Source: Myxococcota bacterium
GTDB lineage: Bacteria; Myxococcota_A; Bradymonadia; UBA7976; UBA1532
Length of the DNA stretch: 64,000 bases
Direction: 5' to 3'
NCBI GenBank assembly: GCA_963169045.1
Contig: CAUJDF010000002.1
Coordinates: 124,001-188,000 of the forward strand
Of the stretch, positions 26,378-43,157 are shown one piece after another (the first letter of the stretch is position 1; every line of letters begins with the position of its first letter). The position numbers and the translations under genes were made by a program. The notes below the pieces were generated by a model that did no database searches, was not told the origin of the DNA, and saw nothing but the letters and a program-made list of their open reading frames with translations.

Positions 26378-26707
26378 TCAGGCTGCGTCGACGTATTGGC
26401 GCAGGACCGCCAGTGTGTCGTCCGGGACGTAGACGAACTCGATGCCGGTGCCCGGGCCGTCGGTGCCCCAGCCGGCGCGGCGGGCGCGCCCGCAGGCCCA
26501 GAGCTGCCGCTGGTCGCCGGGCAGCTCGAACCGGATGATCACCGGGCCGTCCCAACGACCGAGGTCGGTGTCGACGGCGCGCGTGGAGCGCACGAACATG
26601 CCTCGCTCCGAGATGTCGGTGCCGAGGCACAGCGCGGCGCGGTCATCGAAGACGGCGGTGACGAAGTCGCCGAAGGCCAGGCGGTTCACGGCGCGACGTT
26701 CGCTCAT
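26378..26707 (-). CDS. PilZ-domain protein
   Basis: This 109-residue single-domain protein starts after AGGGGGA. It begins SERRAVNRLAFGDFVTAV, then DISERGMFVRSTRAV and GTGIEFVYVPDDT, which is the PilZ layout. The c-di-GMP RxxxR region reads RRAVNR, and the D/NxSxxG motif is DISERG, so ligand binding is plausible. Myxobacterial PilZ proteins control motility and exopolysaccharide. It probably shares a transcript with the M61 peptidase. Confidence 0.82.
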   Translation of the reverse strand: MSERRAVNRLAFGDFVTAVFDDRAALCLGTDISERGMFVRSTRAVDTDLGRWDGPVIIRFELPGDQRQLWACGRARRAGWGTDGPGTGIEFVYVPDDTLAVLRQYVDAA

Positions 26708-26837
26708 GCGGTCCCCCTTTCGGACTCGGCGCAGGAGCGCGCCGATGGGTGGACAATCTCCCACATGTAGGTGCGCGTCAAATTCCGGTTCGGTTGATCC
26801 GCGGCGGCGCGCGGCCGCATGCTCGTGGGACGAGACC

Positions 26838-27656
26838 ATGCGTCGCCTCCTCTCTCCCCTGCTGTTGGTGCTGCCTGCGTGCGCGGAGATCACGCCGCCA
26901 CCCGACGGCGCCGTGTCGCGCCTGACGGACGACGCGCTGGTGGGCGGCGGGATGCCGAGGCGCGACGGCGGCGCCGCGGCCTTTGACGCCGCGCCTCCGC
27001 CGCCTCCGCCGCCCGAAGGCTGCGGGGCCGCCGACGCGCCGCTCTGCGCGGCGTGCGGCGCCGACGGGACGCCCCAGCCCCTCGCCGACGACCCCCGCTG
27101 CCCTGCCCTCGACTGCTCCATCTTCGACACGTTTGTTCGGACGACCGAGGGCGGCACCGAGATCTGCGTCCGCACCCGTTTCGCACCCGCCGGCGGTCGC
27201 TGCCTCGCCGTCGGCCGGTGTCGCGAGGCCGCCGACGCGGCGTGGTGCGCCGATCGCACCGCCGAGGAGGCCGCGCGCGCCGACCGCCCCTGCCAGGCGA
27301 TGCAGGGCTGCGCCGGGAGCACGCCGCCGTCGTTCGCGCCCGCGCCGGAGGGCACGCCCTGCGAGGGCGGCCGCTGCGACGCGGAGGGCGCCTGCCTGCC
27401 CGTCGTGGACGACGACCGGTGCGATCCCTGGGCCGCCGGCACGGTCTGCCGCACCGGCGTGCACATCAACGGCGAGTCCTACTGCGAGGTCGCGACCGAC
27501 GGCGGCAGCTGCTTCGACGCGTGCGGCGCCGGCGGGAGCTACTGCATCGCGGCGCGCGCCGCCGGCCCGGGCGTCTGCGAGGCGGGCGCCGAGCGGGGCT
27601 GCATCGAGGCCGGCGCAGCCCAGCTGTGCTGGTGCCGCGTCCGGAGCGAGCAGTAG
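26838..27656 (+). CDS. Cysteine-rich lipoprotein
   Basis: The product has 272 residues with a lipobox (LLLVLPAC), a linker with PPPPPPP, then about 210 residues with more than 25 cysteines in loosely spaced pairs (PLCAACGADG, PCEGGRCDAEGACLP, SCFDACGAGGSYC, CWCRV at the end). No enzyme motif is recognised. The pattern suggests a disulfide-stabilised surface protein. It is read divergently from the PilZ/M61 pair across a 130-bp gap. Confidence 0.7.
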   Translation: MRRLLSPLLLVLPACAEITPPPDGAVSRLTDDALVGGGMPRRDGGAAAFDAAPPPPPPPEGCGAADAPLCAACGADGTPQPLADDPRCPALDCSIFDTFVRTTEGGTEICVRTRFAPAGGRCLAVGRCREAADAAWCADRTAEEAARADRPCQAMQGCAGSTPPSFAPAPEGTPCEGGRCDAEGACLPVVDDDRCDPWAAGTVCRTGVHINGESYCEVATDGGSCFDACGAGGSYCIAARAAGPGVCEAGAERGCIEAGAAQLCWCRVRSEQ

Positions 27657-31091: not shown

Positions 31092-33392
31092 TCATGGCCG
31101 TGTCACCGCGCCGCCCAGGCTGAGCAGGAAGGCGACCAGGTCGTCGAGCTGCGCGGGCGTCAGGTGGCTCGTGCGGCCGTGGCGGTCGGCGGCGTTGCGC
31201 GTCGTCAGCACGTCGCGCAGCGTCGGCGCGGAGCCGTCGTGCAGGTACGGCGGGTTGCGCCACAGGCCGTACAACGTCGGGGTGTCGAGGCCCGGCAGCG
31301 GCCCGCCGAGGCGCTGGCCGGAGCCCGCCCCGAGCGTGCCGACGTCGTGCAGGCGCGGTACGCCCGCGGCCTCGAAGGCGCTGTCGGTGAGGGCCGGGCC
31401 CGCGTGGCACCCGGCGCAGCCCACCTCGGGCGACTCGAAGAGAGCGCGGCCGCGCGCCGCTGAGTCGTCGTCGGGGTGCGGGCTCGGCGCGATCTCCGCG
31501 AGCGAGGCGACGTAGGCGGCGAGCGCGTCGAGGTCCGGGCTGAGGCCGGCCTTGGGCGCGCCCAGCGTCATGTCCCTGGAATCGCTGTGGAAATCGGGGT
31601 CGGTCAGCAGGCCGGTGCCGCCGAACGGCCCGCGGATGTCGTGCTCGAAGTCCTGCACCTCGTCGAAGTTGGCGCTCCAGTGCAGCGGCGCGGCGCCGGC
31701 GCGGCCGACGAGCGCGATGGTGTTGCGCAGGCCCTCGCCGCGGTCGGTGAAGTCCCAGACGAGATTGTCGCCGTCGCCGTCGAGGTGGCAGTGGGCGCAC
31801 GCGACGTAGCCGGCCGCGGCGAGCCGCGTGTCGTAGGCGTCGTTGAACAGCTGCTTGCCGCGCAGCACGGCGGGCGGCAGCGGCTCGGCCTCGATCGTGC
31901 GGAGGCGCGCGACCGGCTCGGGCTGCCGATCGAAGCTCGAGACGTCGTAGACGACCACCTCGCGGGAGAGCGACGCGTCGACGAAGAGGAAGCGGTCGTC
32001 GTCGGAGAGCGCGAGGCCCGCCGGCGCGTAGCCGACGTCGCCGATCGAGCCGGAGGGCGTCCCGTCGTAGCGGTCGAGGCGGTCGACGCTGCGGCTGCCG
32101 AGGCCCGCGACGTAGAGGTAGTCACCGTGACGGCTGTAGACCGCCGCCGAGGCGAAGCCGCGCTCGTCGAACTGCTTGCGCTCGTCGAAGCGCTCCTCGA
32201 GCGAGGCGCCGTCGAGGAAGCTGACGACGGCGCGCACCGTCGTGTCGAAGCGCAGCGGCGTGCCGTCGCGGAAGAGCCCCTGCCCGATGTTCGCCTGGAG
32301 CGACGGGAGCGCGATCTCGCGGCCGTCCGGCGCCACGAGGACCTGGTCGAGGTAGCTCGGCACGCCGCCGATCTCGGTGTCGCTCGCCACCTGCGGATCG
32401 AACGCGAGCCGCCGTGTCTCGACGCCGCCGGTCGCCGGGTCGAGGACGTAGATCTCGCCGCCCTCCGGCGGAGAGCGCCAGCGCGAGACCAGCAGCCGTC
32501 CGCCGCGCTCGCCGGGCAGCCAGGCGATGCCGCGCGGATCCGGTCCGACCGGGAAGCGGTCCGGGCCCTCGGCATGGGCGCCGACGCGGGCGACCTCGCC
32601 GGTGGCGCCCAGCGTGACGAACCACTGTACGCCGTCGAAGGCGCCCACGATGCCGTGCGGCCGGCTGCCCACGGGCATCGGCACCCGGATCTCGTTCAGC
32701 GGGGTGGCCGGATCGCCGAGCGGCGCTCCGCCGGCGCCGGCGGGGGCGAAGAAGCGCACCTCGTCGGCCTCGCAGGCCACCGCCAGCGCGATGCCGCCCG
32801 CCGCCAGCGTGCGCGGGCCGCGGCACGTGGCGAGGCGTCGAGAGACGGCCCAGCCGTCGTCGACGCGGCGCAGCAGGACCACCTGGTCCGCGTCCGGCAC
32901 GACGAGGGCCACCGTCGACGAGCCGTCCGGCTCGCGGAACGTCCGGATCGTGGCGCTGCTCGACGGCCCCGCGCCCCACTCGGGGGCCCCGGGCACCGCC
33001 GTGATCACCACGCCGGCCGTCCGGCGGGCGCCGTTCGCGCTGAACGCGGTCAGCGTCGCGCGATAGCGGCCCGGCCGGTCGTAAGCGACGGTGGCGGTCG
33101 GCTCGGGTCGCGGCGCGTCCCAGCCCCCGCCGTCCCCGAACGACCACTGGAAGGCGACGGCGCCCGTCGACGCGCTGCCGTCGAGGACGACCGGCTCGCC
33201 GACCTTCACGTAGCGGGACTCGCCGGCCCGCGGTACGAGCGGTACCGCGGAATCCGCAGCCGAGTCGGGCACTTGCGCGGCGTCCGCCGCCGTGGCGTCC
33301 TTGTCGGGCGCGTCGGCCGACGGCGTTCCGGGGTCGGCGCCGCACGCCGCGAGCGCCCACGCCGCCAGCCCCGACGCCCAGGCGCGCCGCAT
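31092..33392 (-). CDS. PKD / beta-propeller / di-heme cytochrome c lipoprotein
   Basis: This 766-residue protein has a lipobox (WALAAC) and an Asp/Ala linker, followed by a PKD-like domain (VVLDGSASTGAVAFQWSFGDGG). A YVTN-type propeller occupies about residues 130-490 (DRFPVGPDPRGIAWLPGERGG, YAPAGLALSDDDRFLFV). A C-terminal cytochrome part has two heme c motifs, CAHCHLDGDGDN and CAGCHAGPALTD, plus LRNTIALVGR and PPYLHDGSAPTL, as in MauG/cytochrome-peroxidase-like proteins. It is probably an outer-surface redox protein. Its ATG shares one base with the stop of the preceding LVIVD gene (TGATG), so the two are translated together. Confidence 0.87.
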   Translation of the reverse strand: MRRAWASGLAAWALAACGADPGTPSADAPDKDATAADAAQVPDSAADSAVPLVPRAGESRYVKVGEPVVLDGSASTGAVAFQWSFGDGGGWDAPRPEPTATVAYDRPGRYRATLTAFSANGARRTAGVVITAVPGAPEWGAGPSSSATIRTFREPDGSSTVALVVPDADQVVLLRRVDDGWAVSRRLATCRGPRTLAAGGIALAVACEADEVRFFAPAGAGGAPLGDPATPLNEIRVPMPVGSRPHGIVGAFDGVQWFVTLGATGEVARVGAHAEGPDRFPVGPDPRGIAWLPGERGGRLLVSRWRSPPEGGEIYVLDPATGGVETRRLAFDPQVASDTEIGGVPSYLDQVLVAPDGREIALPSLQANIGQGLFRDGTPLRFDTTVRAVVSFLDGASLEERFDERKQFDERGFASAAVYSRHGDYLYVAGLGSRSVDRLDRYDGTPSGSIGDVGYAPAGLALSDDDRFLFVDASLSREVVVYDVSSFDRQPEPVARLRTIEAEPLPPAVLRGKQLFNDAYDTRLAAAGYVACAHCHLDGDGDNLVWDFTDRGEGLRNTIALVGRAGAAPLHWSANFDEVQDFEHDIRGPFGGTGLLTDPDFHSDSRDMTLGAPKAGLSPDLDALAAYVASLAEIAPSPHPDDDSAARGRALFESPEVGCAGCHAGPALTDSAFEAAGVPRLHDVGTLGAGSGQRLGGPLPGLDTPTLYGLWRNPPYLHDGSAPTLRDVLTTRNAADRHGRTSHLTPAQLDDLVAFLLSLGGAVTRP

Positions 33393-34993
33393 CAGCCGCC
33401 CGTCGTGAAGGTGAGGGTGAACGGCTCGGCGACGGCGTTCCCGTTGAAGTCGGCGACACCGCCCGCCGGCACCTCGAGCACGTAGCGCGTGCGCGGCTGC
33501 AGCGGCGCCCGCGGCCGGAAGTTCACGACGTTCTCCTGCGCCGACACGAAGCCGTCGACGCGTGTGCGCGCCGGGTCCGTCCCCGCCTCGTAGAGCCTCA
33601 CCGAGCCCTCCCAGGCGGAGCGCACGTCGACCGGCTCGCCGAACGTGAGGCCGAGGGCCGAGGTCGGCGGCAGATCCGCGGCGCCCTCGGCGGGGAAGCT
33701 CCACGTGACCCGCGGCGGGGTCGTGTCGGGCGCCGCGGCCCACGGGGCGATGGCGCTGCCCTGGTCCGGCGCCGCCTTGTCGTCGACGCTGAGCACCGCC
33801 ACGTTGCCGACGGGCGTGATCGTGTCGAGGTCGCCCTCGAGGCCCAGGCGCGCCACCGGCTGGATGTTCCCGAGGTCGCGGACGTCGTAGATCGCCGCGA
33901 AGTTCGACTCGCCGACGAAGGCGAGGCCCTCCTTCAGGAAGACATAGCCGCCGTTGCCGTCGGAGCGGTAGGCGCCGGCCCACGTGGGGCGCGTCGGGTC
34001 GCGCACGTCGTACACGATCAACCCGCCGCCGCCCTCCTTGCGCGCGTACCAGACGTAGCCGCCCTCCACGTTCGTGAAGTAGGCCTCGCGCCCGGGGCCG
34101 TCGGGCGTCTCGCGTGCGAGGAAGTCGCCGCCGGGGATGGGCTGCGGCGCGGTCGGATCGGAGATGTCGAGCAGCACCGTGCGCGCGCCCTCGGCGGCGG
34201 TCACGATCAGCAGGTTGCCCACGGCCTGCACCTGCCCGGCGCGCAGGACCGGCTCGAGCGAGTGGCGGGTCACCAGTCTCGGCGCCCGAGGATCGCTGGC
34301 GTCGACGACGTATACGCCGTTGTCGGCGCCGGCGACGTACACGTACGGCACCTGCCAGAACACGCTGAGCGTCACGCGCTGGTAGGCGTCCGGGTAGCGA
34401 AATCCTTCGAGATGCAGGGTACTTGCGACCGTCGGCGCCTCGACGTCGGCCACGTCCCAGAACATGATGCCGCCGCGGACGAACGACTCGAGGTGGTTCG
34501 TGACCGCCCAGCGGCCGCCCTCGTGCGAGAAGCCGATGCTGTGGGTCTCGCGCATCGCGGGCGACTCGCCGCCGCCGACGCGGACCGGCGCGCACGGATC
34601 GGCGATGTCCCAGAACGTGAGCCCGCCGCTCAGGCCGAACTCCGGCGACCAGGGCAGCAACAGGTAGCCGTCGTACATCGTCGCGAGGTTGTGGTGGTCG
34701 GTGCGGTCGCCCGGGCCGCCGTCGAGCCAGGCGCAGTTCTGCAGGAGCTGCTCGGGCGCGAACGTCACCGTGGGCGCGCCGGGGCCGCGGTTCGGCCCCC
34801 ACGCGCCGGGCTCGGGGTACGGCCTCGGCGGAGGCCCCGCGTCCGCGGCCTCGCCCGCATCGGGCGGCTGCGCGTCCGCCATCCGGGCGTCCGGCGCAGC
34901 GTCGGCGGGGGCGTCGTCCGCCGGCGCGTCCCCGCAGCCGGCCGCGAGCACCGCCAGCCCCACCCCTCCGCGCATCGACCGAAGCCACGTCAT
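33392..34993 (-). CDS. LVIVD-repeat lipoprotein with Ig-like C-terminus
   Basis: This 533-residue protein has a lipobox AVLAAGC and an Asp/Ala/Pro linker. The body has about six LVIVD-type repeats: YVVDASDPRAPRLV, TVLLDISDPTAPQPI, LIVYDVRDPTRPTW and AAIYDVRDLGNIQPV, a motif set predicting a beta-propeller. The last 100 residues look like a bacterial Ig-like (Big_5) domain: PPRVTWSFPAEGAADLPPTS, then LTFTTGG. The start at 34993 is preferred for signal length, though ATG 34975 also works; neither has a good ribosome binding site. It is coupled to the di-heme lipoprotein, suggesting one cell-surface complex. Confidence 0.82.
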   Translation of the reverse strand: MTWLRSMRGGVGLAVLAAGCGDAPADDAPADAAPDARMADAQPPDAGEAADAGPPPRPYPEPGAWGPNRGPGAPTVTFAPEQLLQNCAWLDGGPGDRTDHHNLATMYDGYLLLPWSPEFGLSGGLTFWDIADPCAPVRVGGGESPAMRETHSIGFSHEGGRWAVTNHLESFVRGGIMFWDVADVEAPTVASTLHLEGFRYPDAYQRVTLSVFWQVPYVYVAGADNGVYVVDASDPRAPRLVTRHSLEPVLRAGQVQAVGNLLIVTAAEGARTVLLDISDPTAPQPIPGGDFLARETPDGPGREAYFTNVEGGYVWYARKEGGGGLIVYDVRDPTRPTWAGAYRSDGNGGYVFLKEGLAFVGESNFAAIYDVRDLGNIQPVARLGLEGDLDTITPVGNVAVLSVDDKAAPDQGSAIAPWAAAPDTTPPRVTWSFPAEGAADLPPTSALGLTFGEPVDVRSAWEGSVRLYEAGTDPARTRVDGFVSAQENVVNFRPRAPLQPRTRYVLEVPAGGVADFNGNAVAEPFTLTFTTGG

Positions 34994-35161
34994 GCGCCGA
35001 AGGTGCGCGATTCGCCTCGACATCGTCAACGTCGAGGCCCCCGCCGGCCGCGCGCGGCGTCGACGGTGGCTCCGCCACCTTCACGGGCGCGTCCGAGTGG
35101 CGTGGCGACGTCCCGGCGCGCCGTGATACAGCACGGACCCAAATTTCCAAGGACTGTCGTC

Positions 35162-38100
35162 ATGTTGCACGCTCGCCGTCCGCGTGTCGCGCTGCTGTTC
35201 GCCCTCGCCCTCGCCGCCTGTGACGACGGTGCTGCCGGCGGGGACGAGCCGCCGCCGGACGCCGCGCCCGACGCCCTGATCGACGGCGCGCCGCCGGCCG
35301 AAGACGCCGCCGCCGATCCGGACGCCGCCGCGGACCCGGACGCCGGCGATGGCGCGGTCGACCCGGACGCGGCGCCCGATCCGGACGCCGCCCCGCCCGC
35401 CGTCGAGACGTGCCAGCAGGCCTGCGATCGTTTCGCCGCATGCGAGCGCCTGACCGAGGTCTTCGGCGACGAGGAGGGGTGCCTCGAGGACTGCGGCCGC
35501 GCCGACGCCGCCGGCGCGGCCGCGCAGTTCTTCCAGTGCGTGTCCGCCGAGGCGTGCAACACCCTGCGCCTCTGTCGCCTCCCCGCCCCGCCGCCGCCGA
35601 CGTGCGAGGCCGTGTGCGCCGCCGCCGACGCGTGCGGCGCGACGCTGGCCTTCGACTGCGGCGCCACCTGCGCGGACGACCCGGATGCGCTCGTCGCTTG
35701 CGCCGCGCACGTGGACCCGGACGTCTGCGCCGTCGTCGACTTCTCGTCGTGCGTCGGCGAGGCGCTCTTCCCCGGCTGCACGCGCCGCTGCGAGGTCGCC
35801 ACCGCCTGCACCGTCGAGGTGCCCGAAGACTGCGTGAACGCCTGCGTCGCCGAGGGCTTCGACGCCGACCCCCTCCGCCGCCTCCGCCAGGGGCAGCGCA
35901 ACGCCTGCGTGAACCTGCACGCCGCCGACTGCCGGCGCGTCAATACGTGCCTGCACCCGGAGGAGGCGCCGCCCCCGCCCGCCGCCGACCGCGAGACGTT
36001 CTGCCGCCTGTGGGCCGCCTGCCCGCTCGGCGCGGAGCTCCCGTGCGACGCGATCTGGCCGAGCATCAGCCCGCCCGAGGCGCCCGAGGCGGTCACGCAG
36101 TGCGTCGTGGCCCGGCTCGCGGACGGTTGCCCGGGGGACCCGTTCCAGGCCCTCGAGGCGTGCTGGAACGGCGGCCCCGTCGTGAGCGGGCCCGGGTGCG
36201 TCGAGCTCTGCGAGGCGCTGGACGTCTGCGACGACGGCGGCGACCGCCAGGCGTGCAACGCCACGTGCGCCGAGGCGCTCGGCCGGGGCGGTGACGCCGC
36301 CGCGCGCCAGCGACTGTTCTTCCCGTGCGGCGCCGCGGAGACGTGCGACGACCTGGCCGCGTGCACGGCGTCGCGCGACCCCGACGGGGCCTGCGCCGGG
36401 CACTGCGCGGCCCTTCGGGCGTGCGGGCTCGCGGGCGACGAATGCGATGCCGACTGCGACGCCGGGTTCGTCCGCGACCGCCAGGCGGCGTGGCGCGAGT
36501 GTGTCCGCGCCGCCGGCGAGGCGTGCGACGCCGTCGCCGCCTGCGCGCCCGCGCCGCCGATCCCTTGCGATCTGCAGTGCGCCCGGCTCGCCGACTGCGG
36601 ACGCCCCGTCGAGCACTGCGTCGGGACCTGCGACGACGCCCACTTCGCCGATCCCGAGCTGGCCGCGCGCCGCTTCGCCTGCATCCTCAGCGCGCCGGTC
36701 TGCGACGCCCGCGCCGGCGGCCACACCGTCGGCGAATGCGAGCGGGACGCCGCCGCCGGCGGCGCAGCCTGCGAGGGCTACTGCCGCGCCGTGAGCGACA
36801 CCTGCGATCCGGGCGCGCCGCGCGTCCTCGCCGACTGCCTCGTGACCTGCGGGCGTGGCTTCACCGGCGACGAGGCCGTGCGCTTCCTCGCCGCGCGCGA
36901 CTGCCTCGGCCACGTCGATCCCGCAGACGGGTGCGACGCGCTGACGGCGTGCGTCGCCCAGGCGCCGGCGCCCGACTGCGCGGCGTGGTGCGGCGGTCTC
37001 GTGGCCTGCGGCCTCGAGGACGAGGCCTGCGCAGCGCGCTGCGCCGCCGATCCCCTCGCGGCCACCCGGGCGCGCCCCCAGGCCGACTGCGTCCGCCGCG
37101 CCGCCGGCGACTGCGCCGACGTGGAGGCCTGCGTGAGCGTCGCCGTCGAGCCCCCGCCGCCGCCGGACCGCGCCACGTTCTGCGCCGTGTACGACCGCTG
37201 CCCCTTCGACGGACGGCCGTTCCCCTGCGACCTCGCCTACGACTTCCTCGAGCAGCAGGGCGGACTCGCCACCGTCCGCTGCGCCCTCGAGGCCCTCCAC
37301 GAGGGGTGCCCCCCGGAGCCGTTCGAGATCCTCGAGCGCTGCCTCGGCGCCGATCCGGTCGGCCCGGAAGTCGTCGCCTGCAGCGCGCTGTGCGAGGCGC
37401 AGGCGGTGTGCGACGCGCTCGGCGATGTGACGCCGTACCAGTGCCAGTTCGAGTGCGCGGAGGCCTTCCGGGGCGACCGGGACGCGGCAGCGCGCCTCGC
37501 CCCCCGCCTCGCCTGCGCCGACGCCCGCGCCTGCGGCGCCCTCGCGGGCTGCCTCGAGCGCAGCGCGCCCGCCGCCCTGTGCGCCGCCCACTGCGACGCG
37601 CTCGCCGCCTGTGGCGCTGCCCCCGAAGACTGCGCCGCGGCCTGCGATGCCGGCTTCTCACGGGAGCGCCAGCGCGCCTCCCGGGTCTGCGTCGCCGCCG
37701 CCGAGGGCTGCGATGCCATCGCCGCCTGCGCGCCGGCGCCCGGCGTGCCCTGCGACCTGTATTGCGCTCGGCGTGATGCCTGCGGCCTCGGCGCTCCCGG
37801 GTGCGAAAACGCGTGTGACGACGAGCACTTCCGGGATCCGCTCGCCGCGGGCGCGCGCGTCGCCTGCGCCCTGACGGCGCCGGAATGCCACCAGGGCGAA
37901 CACACCGTCCAGGCCTGCGTCGCCACGGCGGATCCCACCGCGCTCCCCGGCGCCGAGTGCCTGTCATGGTGCAACGCCGTCACCACCTGCGACGAGGGCG
38001 CCGGGCGCGACCTCGCCGCCTGCGTGACCGACTGCGCCGCCGGCTTCGCGGGCGACGAGGCGATCGCGTTCCACGCCGCGCGCGCCTGCCTGGCGCGCCT

Positions 38101-38932
38101 CGACGCCGACGCTGCATGCGACGCGCGGCTGGCCTGCGTGCCCGAAGCGCCCGTCGTCGACTGCGAGGCGCACGACGCCCGCCTGCTGGCCTGCGGCCTC
38201 CCCGCCGCCGACGCCTGCCCCGACGCCGCCGTCGCGGGCTGCGCCCTCGAGGCCGCTCGACTCGGCCGCGGCTGTGCCGCCGTCGCAGCCTGCGTCGGCT
38301 TCGAGGCCCCGGCGATCGCGCCGGCCTGCGCCGCGCTGTGCGAGCGGCGCGCCGGGTGCGACGACGCCACCGACGCGTTCGCGTGCGCCCTCGGGTGCGC
38401 CGACGCCGGGCCCGAGATCGCCGTCCGCGCCGCCTGCGCCGAGGTGACCGCCTGCGGCGATCTCGGCGCGTGCCTGCGCCTCGACGCCGAGCCCGACGCC
38501 GCCTGCGCCGCGCCGTGCGGCGACGCGGTCGCCTGCGGCGCCTTCGCCGACGAGGCCGCGTGCGGCGCCGTGTGCAACGGACGCCTCCGCAGCCCCGCGG
38601 CGCCCGCCGACTACGGTCCGGGCCTCGCGCCCTGCGTCCGCGACGCCGGCTGCGACCCCGCCGCGACCGCCGGCTGCTTCGCCTTCCCCGTGGCGAGCTG
38701 CGACGCCGCGTGCGGCTTCCTCTCCGCGTGCGGCGCGTTCCCGCCCGGCGACCCGGAGTGCGTCCTCGGCTGTCGTCAGGCCCAGATGGAGGACCCCGAG
38801 CGGACGCAGCACCAGATCGACTGCCTCGTCCGCCACCTCGGCGACGGACGTTGCGACCTCGATGCGGCGCAGCGCTGCGCCGACGAGGCCGTGCCGCCGC
38901 CCGACCGCCCCGACGAGCCGCCGCCGCGCTGA
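35162..38932 (+). CDS. Giant cysteine-repeat lipoprotein (1256 aa)
   Basis: The lipobox is LFALALAAC, then about 60 residues of Asp/Ala/Pro repeats. The remaining 1170 residues are built from roughly 18-20 modules of 40-60 residues of the form CxxxCDxxxxC...C...C...F......CL....CDAxxAC. My hand count gives about 140 cysteines, about 11% of residues. Two long copies of a block of about 390 residues follow each other (see the super-repeat entry). There are no enzyme motifs, few aromatic residues and mostly Ala/Asp/Glu between the cysteines. The even pattern implies many disulfides and an extended, stable surface fibre or shield. I recognise no named family. The 168-bp divergent gap to the LVIVD gene may hold shared promoters. 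Confidence 0.82.
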   Translation: MLHARRPRVALLFALALAACDDGAAGGDEPPPDAAPDALIDGAPPAEDAAADPDAAADPDAGDGAVDPDAAPDPDAAPPAVETCQQACDRFAACERLTEVFGDEEGCLEDCGRADAAGAAAQFFQCVSAEACNTLRLCRLPAPPPPTCEAVCAAADACGATLAFDCGATCADDPDALVACAAHVDPDVCAVVDFSSCVGEALFPGCTRRCEVATACTVEVPEDCVNACVAEGFDADPLRRLRQGQRNACVNLHAADCRRVNTCLHPEEAPPPPAADRETFCRLWAACPLGAELPCDAIWPSISPPEAPEAVTQCVVARLADGCPGDPFQALEACWNGGPVVSGPGCVELCEALDVCDDGGDRQACNATCAEALGRGGDAAARQRLFFPCGAAETCDDLAACTASRDPDGACAGHCAALRACGLAGDECDADCDAGFVRDRQAAWRECVRAAGEACDAVAACAPAPPIPCDLQCARLADCGRPVEHCVGTCDDAHFADPELAARRFACILSAPVCDARAGGHTVGECERDAAAGGAACEGYCRAVSDTCDPGAPRVLADCLVTCGRGFTGDEAVRFLAARDCLGHVDPADGCDALTACVAQAPAPDCAAWCGGLVACGLEDEACAARCAADPLAATRARPQADCVRRAAGDCADVEACVSVAVEPPPPPDRATFCAVYDRCPFDGRPFPCDLAYDFLEQQGGLATVRCALEALHEGCPPEPFEILERCLGADPVGPEVVACSALCEAQAVCDALGDVTPYQCQFECAEAFRGDRDAAARLAPRLACADARACGALAGCLERSAPAALCAAHCDALAACGAAPEDCAAACDAGFSRERQRASRVCVAAAEGCDAIAACAPAPGVPCDLYCARRDACGLGAPGCENACDDEHFRDPLAAGARVACALTAPECHQGEHTVQACVATADPTALPGAECLSWCNAVTTCDEGAGRDLAACVTDCAAGFAGDEAIAFHAARACLARLDADAACDARLACVPEAPVVDCEAHDARLLACGLPAADACPDAAVAGCALEAARLGRGCAAVAACVGFEAPAIAPACAALCERRAGCDDATDAFACALGCADAGPEIAVRAACAEVTACGDLGACLRLDAEPDAACAAPCGDAVACGAFADEAACGAVCNGRLRSPAAPADYGPGLAPCVRDAGCDPAATAGCFAFPVASCDAACGFLSACGAFPPGDPECVLGCRQAQMEDPERTQHQIDCLVRHLGDGRCDLDAAQRCADEAVPPPDRPDEPPPR
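35987..38323 (+). repeat. Tandem super-repeat of about 390 residues in the cysteine-repeat lipoprotein
   Basis: Unit 1 (35987-37165) begins DRETFCRLWAACP and unit 2 (37166-38323) begins DRATFCAVYDRCP. Landmarks recur in the same order: PPEPFEILERCL versus GDPFQALEACW, CDAGF-(V/S)R-(D/E)RQ, CDA(V/I)AACAPAP, PCDLxCAR, CDDxHF, HTV, GF-(T/A)-GDEA, and a Cys-Ala/Val end. My count is 46 and 44 cysteines. DNA divergence is clear, so the duplication is old. Confidence 0.8.
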
Positions 38933-42530: not shown

Positions 42531-43157
42531 ATGAAGAGGTATGCCGTGCTTGCGGTGCTGCTCCCCGCGTGCGGGATCGACGGCGGCGGAGGGCTCGACG
42601 GCGACGCCCTCGACGCGGCGCACGACGCCGGGGCACGCGACGCCTCCGTGCGCGTCGAGGACGCGGCCGCCCCGGACGCCGACCGCGAGGCGGATCCCAT
42701 CACCGAAGCCATCAACGCGCTCCGCGCCGAGCGTCGTCTCCCCCGGGTGCCGTGGTCGCCCGAGCTGACGCGCGTCGCCGAGTTGCACGTGCTGGATCTC
42801 GAAGCACACTTCGCGGCCTTTGGGCCCGAGTGTAACGGTCACAGCTGGTCCGACGACGGTCCGTGGAGCGGCTGCTGCTATACGGACGACCATGCCGAGG
42901 CGGAGTGCATGTGGCACAAACCCGCCGAGCTGTCCGCGTACCCCGACTTCGGCTTCGAGATCATGGTGCGCGGCGGCGGCGCCGCGCTCGACGCCCAGGA
43001 CGCGATGACCTTGTGGCTCGGCAGCCCGCCTCACCTCGCCGTGATCCTCAGCGAGCCGCCGTGGGACGACGAGCCCTGGCAGGCGCTCGGCGGGGCCCTG
43101 TCTCCGAACTTCGGCGCCGCCTGGTTCGGCAAGGTGCCCGATCCGTCCTCGCCGTGA
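42531..43157 (+). CDS. CAP/SCP-domain lipoprotein
   Basis: The product has 208 residues with a lipobox (LAVLLPAC) and a short Asp/Ala linker. The CAP domain at about 60-205 shows ITEAINALRAERRLPRVPWS, ELTRVAELHVLDLEAHF, the histidine in CNGHSW, GFEIMVRGG and LWLGSPPHLAVIL. Four cysteines (CNG, CCY, ECMW) add disulfides. CAP domains bind lipids, sterols or ions and occur in secreted proteins; no enzyme activity is implied. Confidence 0.85.
   Translation: MKRYAVLAVLLPACGIDGGGGLDGDALDAAHDAGARDASVRVEDAAAPDADREADPITEAINALRAERRLPRVPWSPELTRVAELHVLDLEAHFAAFGPECNGHSWSDDGPWSGCCYTDDHAEAECMWHKPAELSAYPDFGFEIMVRGGGAALDAQDAMTLWLGSPPHLAVILSEPPWDDEPWQALGGALSPNFGAAWFGKVPDPSSP

Follow-up and report, generated by a model that had tools for sequence, protein, structure and literature searches.

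Organization of the Locus

The window analyzed here, a contiguous stretch of 64,000 nucleotides from an as yet uncultured myxobacterial relative, carries on its forward strand a gene whose product appears to be built almost entirely from cysteine-rich modules. The features assigned to this gene are as follows.

35162..38932, +: Cys-rich modular lipoprotein gene, a single open frame with third-position GC of 0.94 and collinear homologues
35162..35221, +: predicted lipoprotein signal peptide, ending in the lipobox LALAAC (Cys20, Asp at +2), assigned by sequence pattern
35222..35401, +: Asp/Pro/Ala-rich linker, residues 21-80 (linkers across the family have 58-95 residues)
35402..35959, +: N-terminal cap, modules 1-3 (residues 81-141, 145-200 and 203-266), 8 Cys each
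35981..37147, +: super-unit A, modules 4-9 (residues 274-662), 46 Cys; model pLDDT 87.6
35981..36172, +: module 4, a 6-Cys variant without C1 and C5; 6 Cys in 11/11 homologues
37160..38311, +: super-unit B, modules 10-15 (residues 667-1050), 44 Cys; duplicate of super-unit A
37160..37351, +: module 10, a 6-Cys variant without C1 and C5; 6 Cys in 11/11 homologues
38153..38302, +: module 15, 6 Cys here (C2 and either C4 or C5 gone); 8 Cys in the other 10 homologues
38318..38887, +: C-terminal cap, modules 16-18 (residues 1053-1107, 1112-1175 and 1177-1242), 8 Cys each
38888..38932, +: short Pro/Asp tail and TGA stop; other C-terminal sequences occur here in some homologues

The original prediction, made from the DNA alone, described a lipoprotein of 1256 residues with about 140 cysteines in 18-20 modules. 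We count 139 cysteines in 1256 amino acids: one in the lipobox, eight in each of 15 modules and six in each of modules 4, 10 and 15, with none left over. The lipobox is thus followed by exactly 18 modules, which take in all 138 remaining cysteines, and 63 residues of linker separate Cys20 from the first module cysteine.

Long chance frames do occur in DNA of 75% GC, and the frame at this locus is open from as far upstream as 33044, features that could be taken to indicate a spurious open frame. However, third-position GC, approximately 0.94 throughout the gene, is only 0.71 where the frame continues upstream of the ATG, and this change at the ATG places the true start at or near the proposed codon and argues against a frameshift. 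Collinear homologues of similar length, approximately 35-45% identical and with invariant cysteines, are present in other genomes, and the frame begins with a signal peptide and lipobox. The spurious-frame explanation is accordingly refuted, and the frameshift that could have undone the earlier reading is not found.

Cysteine Parity and Paired Losses

The modules follow the pattern C-x3-C-x5-C-x(6-12)-C-x3-C-x(9-20)-C-x(5-9)-C-x(5-7)-C, with a few small departures. Across modules 1-17 of 11 homologues, 163 of 187 instances contain eight cysteines, 24 contain six, and none contains an odd number; module 18 was left out of this count because it is variable and some homologues end differently. 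The cysteine total is likewise even in all 19 ectodomains, although these are all related and contig ends truncate some of them, such that this agreement is to be read as support rather than as a probability.

A profile alignment of 415 modules includes 347 with all eight cysteines, 56 shortened by local alignment, and 12 with losses. Among the 359 full-length matches, C2 and C4 are jointly absent from nine and C1 and C5 from two, although many of these modules are homologous to one another and hence represent few independent events. C7 also reads as absent in four of the nine modules without C2 and C4, which we take to be misalignment, and the single module that lacks C5 alone has a one-residue shift in spacing. 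Because C1 and C5, or C2 and C4, are lost together, the simplest reading is that C1-C5 and C2-C4 disulfides would form, which is also the pairing of alpha-hairpinins. The remaining cysteines, C3, C6, C7 and C8, would then pair among themselves within each module, and the 18 modules are probably held by 69 disulfide bonds. The heavy disulfide bonding anticipated in the original prediction is supported by both the parity and the paired losses.

The module cysteines would need to be oxidized, and genes for VKOR are present in 14/14 genomes searched, the source genome having four copies, which exceeds the number in the 13 relatives. The very high cysteine content and the CX3C pairs could instead suggest a metal- or redox-active store of thiols in the periplasm. 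We regard this as very improbable, as strictly even numbers of cysteines per module and losses in fixed pairs suit disulfides better than metal sites, and the VKOR oxidation machinery is at hand.

Several homologues contain in-frame TGA codons, all of which are terminal stops except for one in L004 (G000:C14:14951-18241, -), a paralogue in the source genome, where TGA occupies the position of an expected conserved module cysteine. A search of this genome for selenocysteine machinery revealed no SelA, and the top tRNA-Sec matches were tRNA-Ser. Without SelA or a true tRNA-Sec, we rejected L004 as a selenoprotein; the TGA likely reflects a nonsense mutation or a fault in the assembly.

Predicted Structure and Similarity to Known Domains

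AlphaFold modeling of a six-module block with 14 sequences (pLDDT 87.6, pTM 0.68) yielded a structure that is all helix except for isolated bridge residues. In this confident model, each module is predicted to be a small all-helical domain of approximately 60 residues and four helices, with C1/C2 and C4/C5 on an alpha1-alpha2 hairpin that is joined by two additional helices. For the full ectodomain, the values fall to a pLDDT of 76.9 and a pTM of only 0.49.

No family in Pfam, NCBIfam, PHROGs or PADLOC matches the protein, and fold searches against PDB and BFVD returned nothing at E <= 0.001. A match of DUF7107 to the module (E 0.0032), seen for a single member out of 42, was judged to be due to chance. 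With a profile of the module, the best match among PDB sequences was a vicilin hairpinin, at a non-significant E of 0.32. The earlier statement that no named domain has this pattern is therefore upheld across these libraries.

Among the plant alpha-hairpinins are vicilin-buried peptides, antimicrobial peptides and trypsin inhibitors. Alpha-hairpinins have a CX3C...CX3C motif, with Cys1-Cys4 and Cys2-Cys3 disulfides that join their two helices (PMC7191063). C1/C2 and C4/C5 of the module have the same spacing (C1-x3-C2 ... C4-x3-C5, invariant in an alignment of modules), and the paired losses lend support to a like outer-outer and inner-inner pairing. Unlike alpha-hairpinins, which are short helix-loop-helix structures with four cysteines, the module has eight cysteines and four helices, its third cysteine lies inside the hairpin loop, and up to 18 copies of it follow one another in tandem on a bacterial lipoprotein, with no significant sequence similarity. 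The shared spacing and inferred pairing raise the prospect of a multi-headed inhibitor or toxin-like array, whose modules would act as alpha-hairpinins do in protecting the cell or attacking prey. This is improbable, in that the module consensus is mostly Cys and Ala and no conserved reactive Arg or Lys is seen in the hairpin loop, each module would have two extra disulfides, and the hairpinin match itself does not reach significance.

A second point of comparison is TraA of Myxococcus xanthus, which combines PA14, the Cys-rich repeats TIGR04201, and MYXO-CTERM (PMC3325183). Both TraA and the protein described here are Myxococcota envelope proteins with a long Cys-rich repeat region. In contrast to the modules, TIGR04201 is a 22-position repeat, and none of 11 array homologues matches it at E 1; moreover, the window protein is anchored by an N-terminal lipid and has no PA14 match in Pfam. 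The source genome itself contains 18 matches to TIGR04201, all at loci other than the 35162-38932 gene. The array may act somewhat as the Cys-rich part of TraA does, but it belongs to another family.

Origin of the 18-Module Form

A duplicated block in two super-units with 46 and 44 cysteines had been proposed, and these counts prove exact. Super-units A (modules 4-9) and B (modules 10-15) are homologous, being 45% identical overall and 38% identical when Cys columns are omitted. The modules of a 12-module sister form are arranged as 3+6+3, and those of the 18-module form as 3+6+6+3. In a tree of super-units, whose root is arbitrary, the 11 first copies fall on one side of a branch (support 94/92), and another branch (100/100) sets off seven of eight single-copy forms; the second copies form no clean group. 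Because first copies and single-copy forms group apart, we conclude from this tree that one old duplication of the six-module block explains the 18-module form.

Distribution, Variation, and Genomic Context

Homologues were identified in 12 of 13 genomes of the source family (the source genome included) and, for a second family of the same order, in each of the three genomes sampled. Elsewhere in the class, a whole-protein search found no homologue at E <= 1e-5, and the module profile gave weaker matches of one to a few modules in other families. Outside the class, the profile matches just one sampled genome at E <= 1e-6, and a search of a plasmid collection found no match. The source genome encodes four other long arrays, and arrays across the family have 9, 12 or 18 modules. 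Together, these results show that the disulfide-rich modular lipoproteins form a genuine family, so far undescribed and specific to this lineage, and they provide good support for its architecture.

A lipobox, called by sequence pattern rather than by a dedicated predictor, is found in 21 family proteins including the window gene product, with linkers of 58-95 residues. The residue at +2 after the lipobox Cys varies among A, D, E, G, Q and V. Consensus positions of the module are mostly Cys and Ala, and its surfaces are Ala-rich and weakly conserved around the invariant Cys frame. Between two genomes of the same genus, arrays are 63-76% identical, as compared to 81-87% for seven of the eight clear neighboring orthologues checked beside two arrays. 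Two lipoproteins adjoining the L036 and L038 arrays, at 38-69% identity, change as fast as the arrays or faster. The C-termini of L009, L010, L003 and L015, and those of L002 and L022, carry two types of other sequence, one of them weakly PPC-like (Pfam, best E 0.089, sub-threshold, in two homologues) and the other with no match in Pfam or PDB.

Long-array genes reside in differing neighborhoods, and no conserved operon partner was found. Genes of exported type adjoin some array genes, encoding a lectin-like protein (Laminin_G_3) or MopE-type metal-binding repeats (PF11617). The latter lie close to two paralogues, whereas the modules themselves give no PF11617 match. Unlike the 18-module genes, the 12-module form (L066, L070 and L071) keeps some neighbors between genera, a methyltransferase-like gene in three of three loci and a citrate-synthase-like gene in two of three (both named by eye).

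Within the window, the divergent neighbors (31095-35029, -) encode two proteins, one with LVIVD repeats and a Big_5 domain, the other with PKD and di-haem cytochrome c domains. A Cys-rich open frame at 26433-27653 (+), with 29 cysteines in 407 residues, a signal-peptide-like start inside it and no Pfam match, has Cys spacing unlike that of the 18-module protein, and the gene at 42531-43157 (+) specifies a small CAP-domain (Cys-rich secretory) protein. Other Cys-rich, lipoprotein-like genes lie near array genes at L064:5347-7596 (-; 69 Cys in 749 amino acids, no Pfam match) and L072:2-4282 (-; 129 Cys in 1427 amino acids).

Possible Function at the Cell Envelope

The combination of lipid anchor, disordered linker and many disulfide-locked modules in series suggests an envelope stalk. 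We consider it quite plausible, with about even expectation for and against, that the array protein is an outer-membrane lipoprotein whose disulfide-locked helical stalk serves in contact or adhesion; surface display, rod shape and this role would each be extrapolations from the architecture. Once exported by Sec, lipidated and oxidized (the genomes encode VKOR), the protein would stand on the outer membrane as a stiff stalk resistant to proteases, held there by its acyl anchor and disordered linker. In its ectodomain, 18 autonomous modules would follow one another, each of them locked internally by four disulfides (three in some modules), with C1-C5 and C2-C4 forming an alpha-hairpinin-type clamp between the first two helices. 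The number of modules (9, 12 or 18) would set the length of the rod, and module surfaces could diversify freely around the invariant cysteines.

The envelope stalk is supported by the lipobox and linkers of the 21 family proteins, by the faster change of arrays relative to most clear neighboring orthologues, and by the lectin-like and MopE-repeat neighbors at some loci together with VKOR in every genome searched. In E. coli, lipoproteins with Asp at +2 are retained in the inner membrane. The Asp at this position in the window protein therefore counts against an outer-membrane stalk, although homologues vary there, and nothing applicable was found in the literature on Myxococcus lipoprotein sorting. 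The low pTM of the full-length model similarly weakens the case for a rod, and no conserved operon partner hints at a function.

Alternatively, the arrays could be structural proteins of a coat or matrix, making up a tough layer hardened by disulfides (an envelope, spore or aggregate coat) rather than standing as individual adhesive stalks. Several paralogues of differing lengths per genome would fit such a layer, as would the Ala-rich, weakly conserved surfaces, and extracellular matrices typically contain Cys-rich proteins (PMC3325183). An even number of cysteines per module, however, provides no spare thiol for cross-linking chains, and the differing C-terminal sequences of some homologues suit a tip better than a coat subunit, which makes a coat role rather unlikely.

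Cultured relatives in Bradymonadia include predators. A bolder form of the stalk reading, to which we assign a somewhat low likelihood, is that the module represents a new disulfide-rich helical fold and that the 9-, 12- and 18-module lipoproteins are lineage-specific, fast-evolving rods that serve surface recognition when the cell meets kin or prey.

The gene thus defines an undescribed protein family, with approximately 69 predicted disulfides in one bacterial chain built by duplication of a six-module block. If confirmed, these proteins would add a disulfide-rich module to those of bacteria and reveal a further means of constructing envelope rods, both of them new. They would also show whether cells of this kind manage to fold tens of disulfides in succession while keeping every bond within its module.
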